Assembly (NCBI GenBank): GCA_021806685.1
Contig: JAJZQU010000008.1
Span: 1-34,571 of the forward strand
Length of the DNA stretch: 34,571 nt
Direction: 5' to 3'
From: a bacterium
GTDB lineage: Bacteria > Patescibacteriota > Patescibacteriia > 2-12-FULL-60-25
A model generated the notes under the pieces. That model did not search any database. It saw only the letters and a program-made list of their open reading frames with translations, and had not been told where the DNA came from. Of the stretch, positions 7,511 through 12,323 are shown piece after piece; the stretch's first letter is position 1; each line of letters starts with the position of its first letter. Position numbers and translations under genes: made by a program.

Positions 7511-7530
7511 AAACATTTTAGTTACAAGTA

Positions 7531-7556
7531 AAAACGCCTTCCGAGGCGTTTTTACT
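7531..7556. terminator. Bidirectional terminator between HU and the methyltransferase gene
   Basis: AAAACGCCT-TCCG-AGGCGTTTTT between convergent genes. Confidence 0.85.
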
Positions 7557-8280
7557 TTTTCATAACCAGAGCTACTAAGTTCCTTCCCTTAACCCAAGAG
7601 CACCAACTCTCTTTGTCATAAGCCCCGATTTTTTCAATTGACCAAAGGGCGGGATCAAAAAGCGATTTGAATTCACTTAAAGTGAAAGCATGGACATAGC
7701 GCTCTTCCAGTTTGCCACTGGCTTTCCAAGGATAATATAAATCGCCGGGCTCCCCGCCTTTAACGCCCCTGAGGCGCAACCAGGCATTCTTAAAAGTATT
7801 CCATGACAAAAAGCGTAGCGCCCGCGGATTCCAAACCGTTAAAAGCATCAAACCGCCGGGTTTTAAAATCCTATGTAATTCCGTTATCGACTCGGCACGC
7901 ATTTCTCGCGAAGGGATGTGGTGCAGCACGGCAATACATGCGATGGCATCTGCGCACCTGTCTTGAAGATCAAGTTTGGGCAAAGAACCTGTAATGACCT
8001 CTCCATTGTTTCGCGACAATAAAAACTGGTCAGCTTCTTTGCGCAACGAACTTGAAGGCTCCACCCCTAAATATCTGACGTCATTTGGTATCACATCCGC
8101 CAACCTGCAATTGCCTGCACCAATGTCGACCAACAAATCTCCTGACTTTAAGCGGTCTGTCAATAAACCCATCAGATTCCATGGCTGAGTTCGCTTAGAG
8201 CTGAAAGCTGGGCCTTCTGACTCATAAAAATCAGCCACTTCCTTGGCCAACTTGCGCCTTACCCCGTTTTCCATCATCAT
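7552..8280 (-). CDS. Class I SAM methyltransferase, Trm9/ALKBH8-MT-like (candidate tRNA wobble-uridine methyltransferase)
   Basis: LLVDIGAGNCRLADV SAM-binding motif; FYESEGPAFSSKRTQPW, CIAVLHHIPSREMR, LHRILKPGGLMLLTVWNP, DLYYPWK and a C-terminal W-rich tail follow the layout of Trm9/ALKBH8-MT proteins; divergent from elp3. Confidence 0.75.
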   Translation of the reverse strand: MMMENGVRRKLAKEVADFYESEGPAFSSKRTQPWNLMGLLTDRLKSGDLLVDIGAGNCRLADVIPNDVRYLGVEPSSSLRKEADQFLLSRNNGEVITGSLPKLDLQDRCADAIACIAVLHHIPSREMRAESITELHRILKPGGLMLLTVWNPRALRFLSWNTFKNAWLRLRGVKGGEPGDLYYPWKASGKLEERYVHAFTLSEFKSLFDPALWSIEKIGAYDKESWCSWVKGRNLVALVMKK

Positions 8281-8304
8281 AGTCTAACTATAGCATTTCA
8301 TTCC
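8281..8304. promoter_or_regulatory. Overlapping divergent promoter sharing one -10 (ACTATAGCA)
   Basis: - strand TGCTATAGT (8295-8287) is 6 nt from the methyltransferase ATG; + strand TATAGC (8289-8294) serves elp3. Confidence 0.5.
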
Positions 8305-9978
8305 TTGAAGTCCATAGTCATGCAACCCTCTCCACCGCTCCAACTCGCAAAAGACATCCTAAAAGATGCGGCTGCTTCGAATTGCGCGACCAGGGTTAGT
8401 TTGGCGTTAGTTGCCCGGCATCATCTGAAAGATACGCCTTATGCTTTCCCAACATCCATGCAATTTTGGACAGCTTACCGCGAACTTTTGACTGAAGGTT
8501 TGGAAAAAAACGAGCCACTTGAAAGAGCCATTCGCGTCAAAGATGTTAGGACAGACAGCGGTGTTGCCCCCATCACTGTTTTAACCAAACCCTTCCCCTG
8601 CCCAGGGCGTTGCGTCTATTGCCCCACAGAAGCCCGAATGCCCAAAAGCTATATCTCGACAGAACCGGCAGCAGCCCGCGCTCTTGGTTTGGAGTTTGAT
8701 CCTTATGAGCAAGTCCGGCAGAGAATTATGGCCCTGGAGCGGAACGGCCACCAAGCCAATAAAATTGAATTGATTGTTAAGGGCGGGACCTGGTCAGCTT
8801 ACACAGCTGATTATCGAGAGTGGTTCATCACAAGATGTTTCCAGGCAGCAAATGAAATCCCTCATCCTCCGACTCCTTCTCCCACGGATGCAGGAGAAGG
8901 AGAGCTTGAAAAGGCTCAAAAAATAAACGAGACAGCGGCTTATCGCATTATTGGATTAACGATTGAGACGCGGCCTGACTGGGTTAAGCCAAAGGAAGTC
9001 ATTCATCTGCGAAAGTTGGGGGTCACGCGCATTGAACTTGGGTTACAGATTATCAACGACAGGGTTTTGAGTTATACCAAGCGCGGGACAACGGTGGCCG
9101 ATGCCGAACGCGCTATAGCCTTGCTTAAAACTGCCGGCTTTAAAGTTGACGTGCATATTTTGCCAGGCCAACCGGGCGCGTCTGTTGAAGATGACTTGGA
9201 ATCATTTCGTCTTTTGTTCGCTGACCCTCGCTTTCGCCCTGACATGGTCAAAATTTATCCTTGCGTGGTGCTCCCCAACTCAGAACTGGCAGAATGGATG
9301 ACAAAGGGCGAGTTCAAACCGCTTGAAGGCGAAGAATTACTTGAGTTACTGATCAAGATGCAAACTATGGTGCCGCGCTATTGCCGTGTGCCACGTGTCA
9401 TTCGCGATTTTCCAACAACCCAAATTGCTTTTGGCAATAAAAAATCCAATTTGCGCGAGATTTTAGACGCTGAAATGAAAAAACGCGGGGTCCAATGCGT
9501 TTGCTTGCGCTGCCGAGAAGTCGGGCATGTGGCGGGCGACCACACGGGCGACAAAACCCAAGTTTTTGAAGAGCGTTATGAAAATGCCGGCGGCACTGAA
9601 GTCTTCTTGTCGGTTGAAAACGAAGATCGAAGCGCGGTTTTCGCGTTTTTGAGGATGCGGCTCCCTCTATTCTCGGCCTTTTCCCCCGCCGATGCAGGAG
9701 AGGGATGCCAAATCATCTACGAGGCTTTTCCGATTTTGAAAGGCGCGGCAATAATCCGTGAGCTGCACACTTACGGCACAGCACTAAACATCGACCAACG
9801 CGATCCTTTGGCGGCCCAACACAAAGGCTATGGGCGTTTACTTATGCAAAAAGCCGAGGAGCTTGCGGCAGCCGAAGGCTTTGACCACATGGCTGTCATC
9901 AGCGGTCTTGGCGTGCGTGAATATTACAAAATACTGGGTTACCAGGAGCAAGACACTTACATGGCCAAAACTCTTTAA
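8305..9978 (+). CDS. elp3: Elp3-family radical SAM/acetyltransferase (tRNA U34 carboxymethyltransferase)
   Basis: VLTKPFPCPGRCVYCPTEARMPKSY (CxxxxCxxC), ETRPDWV, QPGASVEDD, IYPCVVLPNSELAEWM, RVPRVIRDFPTT, C-terminal GNAT HKGYGRLLMQKAEELA. Start could be TTG 8305 or ATG 8320. Confidence 0.95.
   Translation: MKSIVMQPSPPLQLAKDILKDAAASNCATRVSLALVARHHLKDTPYAFPTSMQFWTAYRELLTEGLEKNEPLERAIRVKDVRTDSGVAPITVLTKPFPCPGRCVYCPTEARMPKSYISTEPAAARALGLEFDPYEQVRQRIMALERNGHQANKIELIVKGGTWSAYTADYREWFITRCFQAANEIPHPPTPSPTDAGEGELEKAQKINETAAYRIIGLTIETRPDWVKPKEVIHLRKLGVTRIELGLQIINDRVLSYTKRGTTVADAERAIALLKTAGFKVDVHILPGQPGASVEDDLESFRLLFADPRFRPDMVKIYPCVVLPNSELAEWMTKGEFKPLEGEELLELLIKMQTMVPRYCRVPRVIRDFPTTQIAFGNKKSNLREILDAEMKKRGVQCVCLRCREVGHVAGDHTGDKTQVFEERYENAGGTEVFLSVENEDRSAVFAFLRMRLPLFSAFSPADAGEGCQIIYEAFPILKGAAIIRELHTYGTALNIDQRDPLAAQHKGYGRLLMQKAEELAAAEGFDHMAVISGLGVREYYKILGYQEQDTYMAKTL
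8873..8902. repeat. In-frame palindromic element A inside elp3
   Basis: CTCCTTCTCC-cacggatgca-GGAGAAGGAG perfect 10-bp inverted repeat; encodes PSPTDAGEGE. Confidence 0.75.
9662..9705. repeat. In-frame palindromic element B inside elp3
   Basis: TCCCTCT...AGAGGGA; shares GATGCAGGAGA and the encoded SPxDAGEG with element A. Confidence 0.65.
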
Positions 9979-9980
9979 GC

Positions 9981-12323
9981 TCAAACGCCGCCGATTTGTT
10001 GGCGCAACTGGCCGACTGTTTTGATTTCAGCTTCTAACTCAGAGATTTTTTTCATTAGCTCAGCCTTGTCTTGACCGGCCTTCTCCATTGCAGCCTTCAT
10101 GGTTTTTACGTTCCCTTCCAATTCTTCCATGCGTTGCCGCAAAAACCTTTCACGCACTGTTGATTCAAGCAGCCTATCAGTATATTCACTTTCCTTAGCT
10201 TCATTTTCCATCTTTTCGATAACATGTTCCAAGACCCTGCGCTGTAAAGCTCCCCAATCCAAGTCTTCTCCCCCATCGCTTTTAATCGCAAATTCGCCCG
10301 CCCATTGGCGGATCATTTTTGGGCCATCGTCACCAATAGCCTTGGCTGAATAATTTTCCAAAGTTTCATAATTGCCTTTGGGTTTTTCTTTGCCCGTACT
10401 TTCCAAGTAATAACGGCGCGTCAGGAGCATAAAACGCTGAATAGTTTTCTCGATTTCAACCTGGCGGTCTGCGATCCTGAATAGATAGTCGGCCGATTCA
10501 TTAACCTTAGCATCCGGACTGTTTTCATCCGCCTTAAGATGAAATTGGGCATCAGCCAACTCCTGTCTAAAGGACGCCATGTCACGTGCTGAATAAGAAC
10601 CAAAGTTAAAGTTCAGTTCTTCTGAGCGATATTGCTGTGTCCTGCCTTGGTCTAAGGCCGGGATTGGCATCTTTCTGGCCATTTCACGGATCTGGTTCTG
10701 GACTTTCCTGACGATTTCTTGGTCATCTGTTCCAAGCGTCAATGCAAACTCGTCGCCCCCAGTGCGGTATGCTTCAGCTTTAACCGAGGGATCCACTGCG
10801 CGCACAGCCGAATCCATCATCCTGGCTGCTGCCGATATGGCCGCGTTGCCTGTTTTACGCCCGCCTTCTTTGTCGAAATATTTAAGAAAAGCCATGTCTA
10901 TAGCTATGACCGTTATTGGCCTACCCTCTGCTAACCTTGACTTGATCTCCCCAAACAGCATTCCGCGTTCATAAAGGCCCGTAGCTGAATTGCGTTTGAC
11001 TTCAACGTTATATTTTTCCGACTTAGCAAGGTTCAAGCGGGCTAAAACTGATTTGTTTTCCGGATCGCTTTGGGCCAAGGCCTCCAATCGCTTAACTTCA
11101 TTGGTCTTGCTTTCAACTTCTCTTGCGCCGGTCGTAGGTTCCAACTGCCCTAAAAACTCATTATCATCTTTTACTTCTTCAAACTCTGCTGCTGTTCCGA
11201 CTTTAGATTCCTTGGCACTTAAAACTTTTTCCTCGCTAAGCTCTTGGCCATGGGACTTCAACAGATCTTCTTTCTTCTTTTCAAAAATGAACTTTGAGAG
11301 TGTAGCGGAAAGGTGATGCGCTTCTTTTTGCCGTGACCTAAAGTCGCCAATCGCCAAACTAATGGCTTTTTCGAGACCTACATCCCTAGTGCCCTTGATA
11401 GCTTCCTTAAAGGCCTCATAACCCATGGCCTCGGCCGCCGGGTCTTCCACGAACAAACGCCCTAACGTCTTTTTTAAGTAGTTCTCATAGAAAGCTTTAG
11501 CCTTTTCGTCATCACCCATCTTAAGGATCCGATCAATACGCGCGTTATTTTTCTCAATATCATTCAGCATCTGGCTTTGTTCCTTGGCCACATCTACAAA
11601 AGCCCTGCCTGGATTGGAATTGGCGATACTATCTTGGTTTTCGTTGAAATAATCCACGGCATCGGCCATGGGTACGTGCGTAGCCACCAGCGGCGGTCTT
11701 TCGCCCTGAGGCAAATCACCGGTTTCCAGGCTGCCATTCAGAGCTTGTTGAATCCTTTGGGCCGTTTCTCCATCCACATTACTCAATATTATTGTAAAAT
11801 CATTGCCCGAGCTGCGATAAATATTAAAATAATTCTCAACATCTTCCCAGGCTGCTTCCTTGCCAGTCTTTTTTTGGATTGTGTCACCAATTACTTCATC
11901 TAACTTTTCATAGATTAACTGGCAGGCGTCCCCCAAGGCCTTATTCCCAGCTTCGTGACCATATTCCTTATTCAAACGATCCAGCTCGCCCATATTAACC
12001 TGGACCAAATGCATGCCTTCAGCTTGCTTCCTATCCAAATTGCCTTGCTTATCTTGCAATTGATCAAAGACATCTTTTAAATCAGATCCCAAATCCTCGC
12101 CTTTCCAGGCGCCTGTCGCGTCTCTCTCGAAATCATATGATTCTACATCCAACCTAGCTGCTTTTAGTTCCAGTTCCGCTGCCTCTAAATCTTCTTTTGG
12201 AGCTGACGTGCCCACTAACCTTTCGTATCTATCCTTGGCATCAGTAAGCGCTTCATCCAAAGGCCTGCGCCACAACGCCTTGCGTTCTGCTTCGGTCGTA
12301 TAACCCCTTTCCCGGTTGGCCAT
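9981..12323 (-). CDS. Tandem GGDEF-domain protein (first domain degenerate, second canonical)
   Basis: First: VNMGELDRLNKEYGHEAGNKALGDACQLI...YRSSGNDFTII. Second: VIAIDMAFLKYFDKEGGRKTGNAAISAAARMM...YRTGGDEFALTLG. Confidence 0.85.
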   Translation of the reverse strand: MANRERGYTTEAERKALWRRPLDEALTDAKDRYERLVGTSAPKEDLEAAELELKAARLDVESYDFERDATGAWKGEDLGSDLKDVFDQLQDKQGNLDRKQAEGMHLVQVNMGELDRLNKEYGHEAGNKALGDACQLIYEKLDEVIGDTIQKKTGKEAAWEDVENYFNIYRSSGNDFTIILSNVDGETAQRIQQALNGSLETGDLPQGERPPLVATHVPMADAVDYFNENQDSIANSNPGRAFVDVAKEQSQMLNDIEKNNARIDRILKMGDDEKAKAFYENYLKKTLGRLFVEDPAAEAMGYEAFKEAIKGTRDVGLEKAISLAIGDFRSRQKEAHHLSATLSKFIFEKKKEDLLKSHGQELSEEKVLSAKESKVGTAAEFEEVKDDNEFLGQLEPTTGAREVESKTNEVKRLEALAQSDPENKSVLARLNLAKSEKYNVEVKRNSATGLYERGMLFGEIKSRLAEGRPITVIAIDMAFLKYFDKEGGRKTGNAAISAAARMMDSAVRAVDPSVKAEAYRTGGDEFALTLGTDDQEIVRKVQNQIREMARKMPIPALDQGRTQQYRSEELNFNFGSYSARDMASFRQELADAQFHLKADENSPDAKVNESADYLFRIADRQVEIEKTIQRFMLLTRRYYLESTGKEKPKGNYETLENYSAKAIGDDGPKMIRQWAGEFAIKSDGGEDLDWGALQRRVLEHVIEKMENEAKESEYTDRLLESTVRERFLRQRMEELEGNVKTMKAAMEKAGQDKAELMKKISELEAEIKTVGQLRQQIGGV

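Follow-up and report, generated by a model that had tools for sequence, protein, structure and literature searches.

The eukaryotic route to mcm5U34 combines Elongator, whose catalytic subunit is Elp3, with the methyltransferase complexes Trm9-Trm112 of yeast or ALKBH8-TRMT112. On its own, purified yeast Trm9 shows no activity and depends on Trm112 (PMC6382703; PMC3110198), and tRNA binding and catalysis require five of its residues, R29, H115, R241, Y243 and N271 (PMC5372719). A 2019 review treats the Trm9 mcm5U-type modification as exclusive to eukaryotes, and likewise describes Trm9 alone as inactive (PMC6382703), while a 2017 review of Trm112 reported that bacterial genomes gave no genes with significant similarity to Trm112-dependent methyltransferases. 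Stand-alone Elp3 together with a Trm9 homologue is found in archaea; for example, (m)cm5U34 has been reported in Haloferax volcanii (PMC6367351) and the Elp3 and Trm9 genes are clustered in Sulfolobus solfataricus (PMC2584109, PMC5372719). Elp3 also occurs in bacteria, where the Dehalococcoides mccartyi enzyme (DmcElp3) has been called a rare bacterial Elp3. DmcElp3 is stand-alone and lacks the N-terminal extension that has been shown to bind tRNA in the M. infernus enzyme MinElp3 (PMC6367351), and no Trm9 partner for it is described in the literature that we found. The bacterial MnmE-MnmG(-MnmC/MnmM) system, which leads to (c)mnm5(s2)U34, acts on the same nucleotide. Our literature searches, which covered open-licence papers, returned no description of a bacterial Elp3-Trm9 pair and nothing relevant on tRNA modification in Patescibacteria or on Elp3 in combination with the Candidate Phyla Radiation.

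In this study, we analyse a 34,571-nucleotide stretch of Patescibacteria DNA (the window) that carries elp3 divergent from a gene for a Trm9-like methyltransferase (MT). The locus resembles the eukaryotic systems in its Elp3 and Trm9 catalytic families, in most key residues, in the expected order of steps and in the availability of thiolation. Unlike those systems, the two genes are adjacent and divergent, Elp1/2/4/5/6 are expected to be missing from a bacterium, no Trm112 was found in the source genome, and thiolation would depend on MnmA instead of the eukaryotic Ncs6/Urm1. The archaeal systems are closer in that they also pair a stand-alone Elp3 with a Trm9 homologue, and archaeal MTs are near relatives of the bacterial MT in our tree. 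They differ in that many archaea have Trm112, whereas the present pair occurs in bacteria, in a fixed divergent layout and in an order without stand-alone Trm112. DmcElp3 shares the bacterial, stand-alone character of the window Elp3 but not its N-terminal extension. The MnmE-MnmG(-MnmC/MnmM) system serves the same decoding role with other enzymes and other chemistry, and MnmG was found in no genome of the order. Thus, the enzymes and the expected reaction are known, and both bacterial Elp3 and the clustering of Elp3 with Trm9 in S. solfataricus have been described; what is new is the bacterial domain, the fixed divergent layout, the order without stand-alone Trm112 and the genomes without detectable MnmG.

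The divergent locus and its Elp3

The source genome is ~920 kb in size and about 85% complete, and a scan of GTDB species genomes with the MT gave Candidatus Uhrbacteria and other Patescibacteria MAGs as its closest named relatives. The first-pass annotation had described positions 7552-9978 as a divergent Elp3/MT pair with a gap of 24 bp. Both ORFs are indeed real, intact and complete, with elp3 extending over 8305-9978 and encoding 557 aa if TTG 8305 is used, but the 24-bp gap rests on that TTG codon. Because close relatives begin at a methionine equivalent to the ATG at 8320 (MQPSPP...), the elp3 start is better placed there, and the gap is therefore 39 bp, or 45 bp if the MT begins at its MENG methionine, which is the ATG of a 90%-identical relative. 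One sigma-70-like match in the intergenic region (8314-8287, directed toward the MT) is weak and amounts to no more than regional chance expectation. A palindrome that overlaps the MT stop codon is likely, from its sequence, to be a bidirectional terminator common to the MT and a convergent HU gene. Convergent with elp3 is a gene for a large GGDEF-domain protein, which is present here in a reduced genome. Coordinates of these features are collected in the table.

Table. Features of the elp3-MT locus, with two related Elp3 frames (positions are those of the window unless a locus is named)
Feature	Position	Strand	Remarks
Palindrome GTAAAAACGCCT-TCCG-AGGCGTTTTTAC	7528..7555	.	Read from sequence; overlaps MT stop codon
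Trm9-like class I SAM-dependent methyltransferase (MT)	7552..8280	-	242-aa ORF, alternative start 8274; Methyltransf_11
Divergent intergenic region	8281..8319	.	39 bp if elp3 starts at ATG 8320
Elp3, radical SAM + GNAT, predicted tRNA U34 carboxymethyl enzyme	8320..9978	+	552 aa from ATG
First in-frame elp3 insert	8860-8904		PHPPTPSPTDAGEGE
Second in-frame elp3 insert	9670-9705		FSAFSPADAGEG
GGDEF-domain protein	9981-12323	-	780 aa, convergent with elp3
Elp3 with in-frame DUF559 domain	L034:1315-3408		Loop is site of window's second insert
Elp3 with in-frame DUF559 domain	L035:1309-3510		Loop is site of window's second insert

The Elp3 protein scores 529 bits against TIGR01211 (curated cut-off 350) with residues 67-557 matched, which is full length, and phmmer against the M. 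infernus Elp3 structures gives an E-value of about 1e-117. It also aligns lengthwise with the M. infernus and D. mccartyi structures. The radical SAM cysteines (CX3CX2C, here CPGRCVYC) and the Zn cysteines are present, and the alignment gives identity at the MinElp3 acetyl-CoA-site residues K150, K266, H463 and Y517. All four of these residues, like Q461, are known to be important in acetyl-CoA hydrolysis. At MinElp3 Q461 the window protein has E, as does DmcElp3 (E386), and its N-terminus has retained an extension of the type that binds tRNA in MinElp3. By analogy with these characterized enzymes, the window Elp3 would be expected to form cm5U34.

Two in-frame inserts with 25-nt cores that are 84% alike occur within elp3, and in relatives other inserts occupy the same two Elp3 loops. 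This pattern suggests that the loops are hot spots for insertion of repeat elements that the protein tolerates. Additionally, in two relatives the GNAT part of Elp3 contains an entire in-frame DUF559 nuclease-like domain (PF04480; 101 and 107 bits). A role of the second insertion loop as an acetyl-CoA blocking loop was considered and rejected, as the loop sits before the conserved ELH and not after it.

Family assignment of the methyltransferase

Generic domain searches say little about the MT. Its Pfam matches are confined to Methyltransf_11/25/12/23 and no NCBIfam equivalog passes its cut-off (best 32.5 bits versus 155), which is what one would expect of a generic UbiE/BioC-type enzyme that adjoins elp3 by accident. 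However, the MT scores just 22.4 bits against UbiE (cut-off 216) and 12.6 against BioC (cut-off 185), all UbiE/BioC models, with cut-offs of about 158-216, stay at or below 22.4 bits, and both PDB and fold rankings favour Trm9. When the single MT was searched against 177,635 PDB sequences, the best match was 5cm2_Z, which is Trm9 from the structure of the Y. lipolytica Trm9-Trm112 complex (1.4e-8; next 2.3e-7), and the same chain ranked first for a profile of the order's MTs (7.5e-14; next 6.5e-13) and for a bacteria-only MT profile (2.3e-24; next 3.8e-15). The lead of Trm9 over the runner-up is thus about tenfold for the single MT and the order profile, and nine orders of magnitude for the bacteria-only profile. 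The latter covers Trm9 over nearly its full length, including the C-terminal lid, whereas most other structures are matched in the core only. On the basis of the NCBIfam scores and the bacteria-only profile search, we rejected the generic UbiE/BioC assignment; no UbiE/BioC-type protein matches the MT as well as Trm9 does.

Structure prediction and phylogeny lead to the same family. The AlphaFold2 model of the MT (pLDDT 95.5) places a lid hairpin over the active site (strands 180-186/191-197), and a Foldseek search with this model against 350,542 chains gives Trm9 as the best match (E 4.4e-15, TM 0.81 by target length), at an identity to YlTrm9 of only about 24%. In the tree, bacterial Elp3-linked MTs, archaeal homologues and yeast Trm9 are split from most generic methyltransferases with support of 98/97, and the archaeal part also contains two long-branch generic rows. 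Placement with archaeal and eukaryotic Trm9, away from most generic methyltransferases, consequently has moderate support. Taken together, sequence, profile and predicted fold, with moderate support from the tree, identify the MT as a Trm9 relative, as the first-pass annotation had proposed. The motifs quoted there are present (FYESEGPAFSSKRTQPW, DIGAGN, IAVLHHIPSREMR, LKPGGLMLLTVW and PW), but its W-rich C-terminal tail is not a family feature. We discarded the tail as evidence since it is not kept across the MT family, where relatives retain only the N of GRNLV.

At the level of individual residues, four of the five yeast Trm9 positions are identical in the MT (R29 to R30, H115 to H120, R241 to R194 and N271 to N234), and Y243 is replaced by V196. 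The yeast Trm9 sequence used in this alignment carries each of the five published residues at its published position, which supports its correctness. Within the order, R30, H121, R194 and N234 are invariant among the 18 MT family members, and the N271 counterpart is not kept in Chloroflexota members. The low identity to Trm9, the absence of Y243 and the loss of N271 in Chloroflexota would all fit an enzyme whose Trm9 likeness extends to fold and ancestry only, and which acts on another Elp3-derived group or on an unrelated one, such as a different U34 side chain or another RNA position; even in yeast the order of the ncm5U/cm5U pathway is unsettled (PMC3110198). We regard such a substrate as improbable. 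Trm9 is the best match by sequence, profile and fold, the counterparts of R29, H115, R241 and N271 are kept in the order, none of the NCBIfam models for other RNA methyltransferases matched the MT, and the MT co-occurs almost exclusively with Elp3, the product of which is cm5U. A Trm9-family enzyme acting on cm5U34 is consequently the reading that we carry forward.

Recurrence of the pair and its genomic context

The linkage to elp3 that had been noticed at this one locus recurs widely. Of the order's 41 genomes, 18 carry the MT and 21 carry Elp3. Every genome with both genes on a single contig has them as divergent neighbours, and the remaining cases are located at contig ends. Across 380 Patescibacteria genomes, 138 carry Elp3, 110 the MT and 109 both, so that 109/110 MT-bearing genomes also carry Elp3. 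Both genes lie on one contig in 98 genomes, and in 88 of these they diverge with less than 500 bp between them. These 88 close pairs span 41 families, with a median of 131 bp between matches, and none has a third gene between MT and Elp3. Fisher's test for co-occurrence in the 380 genomes gives p of about 1e-66 with kinship ignored, and the count of 41 families is the safer statement. Scanning GTDB species genomes with the MT alone revealed the same divergent arrangement in Magasanikbacteria and Peregrinibacteria as well as in about 15 Anaerolineae/Chloroflexota genomes. Because the divergent layout recurs in 41 Patescibacteria families and in Chloroflexota, the pair exceeds a chance arrangement, and an accidental neighbour of the UbiE/BioC type is left close to refuted, with a negligible probability. 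Archaeal Trm9-like MTs from the same scan (L060, L064, L065, L068, L074 and L080) had no Elp3 in the fetched surrounding DNA, unlike most of the bacterial ones, which do have a nearby Elp3.

The association is not symmetrical, as 29 of the 138 Elp3-bearing Patescibacteria genomes have no detectable MT; the methyl step is thus not obligatory. This fits either an optional methyl step or a diverged MT, and in these genomes cm5U/ncm5U may be the end product or another enzyme may act. Twelve of the 29 belong to a single family (f36), and the others to f31 and further families.

A search for MnmG (TIGR00136) was negative in all 41 genomes of the order, and the same search was positive in 9 control bacteria. 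Among the 380 Patescibacteria genomes MnmG was detected in 5, none an Elp3 carrier, and it was found in 0/20 Chloroflexota and other MT-bearing genomes, 19 of which have a nearby Elp3. In contrast, MnmA is present in 40/41 genomes of the order, the exception being the window's own incomplete genome. Most of the 380 genomes are without both MnmG and Elp3, and neither enzyme would account for U34 C5 modification in them.

Trm112 gave no match in the window's own genome (~85% complete). No stand-alone Trm112 was found in the order, where one of the 41 genomes had a match, located within a 359-aa frame. Phylum-wide, the 380 genomes contain one above-cut-off frame of Trm112 size (64 aa), in a genome without Elp3. 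The search was positive in 9 control genomes. These searches support, for the order and for nearly all of the phylum, the earlier suggestion that Trm112 is missing, which does not extend to Chloroflexota. Several Chloroflexota genomes with the pair have Trm112-sized ORFs, and Trm112 independence is thus claimable for Patescibacteria only, where it may be deduced from gene content. The lack of a Trm112 partner speaks against a Trm9-Trm112 complex and does not weigh on ancestry or function within the Trm9 family.

The same observations bear on whether two enzymes would suffice. Given that yeast Trm9 alone is inactive, the MT could belong to the Trm9 family and cooperate with Elp3 yet depend on a small unrecognised activator, either a diverged Trm112 or a non-homologous replacement for it. 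The Trm112-sized ORFs of the Chloroflexota relatives point in this direction, as does the fact that most Patescibacteria Trm112-domain matches belong to frames of roughly 300 aa and longer, which means that fused forms occur. Against it stand the near-complete lack of stand-alone Trm112 from the phylum, its lack from the order under a search that recognised it in 9 control genomes, and the 88 close pairs with no intervening gene. We therefore consider a hidden activator unlikely but not negligible, and retain the two-enzyme reading for Patescibacteria.

A candidate stand-alone wobble-uridine pathway

In the pathway that we propose, Elp3 would act without other Elongator subunits, using acetyl-CoA and radical SAM chemistry to carboxymethylate U34 at C5 (cm5U34). 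The adjacent Trm9-family MT, in Patescibacteria without Trm112, would then methyl-esterify cm5U34 to mcm5U34, and MnmA, encoded elsewhere in the genome, could add the 2-thio group to give mcm5s2U34. Since MnmG was not found, the Elp3-MT pathway would fill the place of MnmE-MnmG. With MnmG not found and MnmA present, mcm5s2U is the likelier end product in thiolated tRNAs. We consider this stand-alone sequence of steps, as read from gene content and from analogy with characterized enzymes, to be the probable function of the locus; the reactions, the tRNA substrates and the independence from Trm112 are all deduced in this way. A partner-free Trm9 would constitute a real departure from the known enzyme because purified yeast Trm9 needs Trm112.

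The wider reading, which we favour with somewhat less assurance, is that two enzymes acting without Trm112 to give mcm5(s2)U34 form one of the major wobble-uridine pathways of Patescibacteria in the place of MnmE-MnmG, with a relative in Anaerolineae, so that mcm5U would be bacterial as well as eukaryotic and archaeal and Trm9 could be self-sufficient. The small, possibly partner-free Trm9 and its co-occurring Elp3 offer a means to reconstitute a route for which yeast requires 15 or more proteins, and they make it testable why yeast Trm9 needs Trm112 while these MTs may not. The pair also suggests the identity of the U34 modification in a large uncultured group that is apparently without MnmG. 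Finally, the repeated linkage of Elp3 with Trm9 in two bacterial phyla alters where mcm5U should be expected; this modification has been described as eukaryotic and, judging from these genomes, is probably widespread in bacteria.
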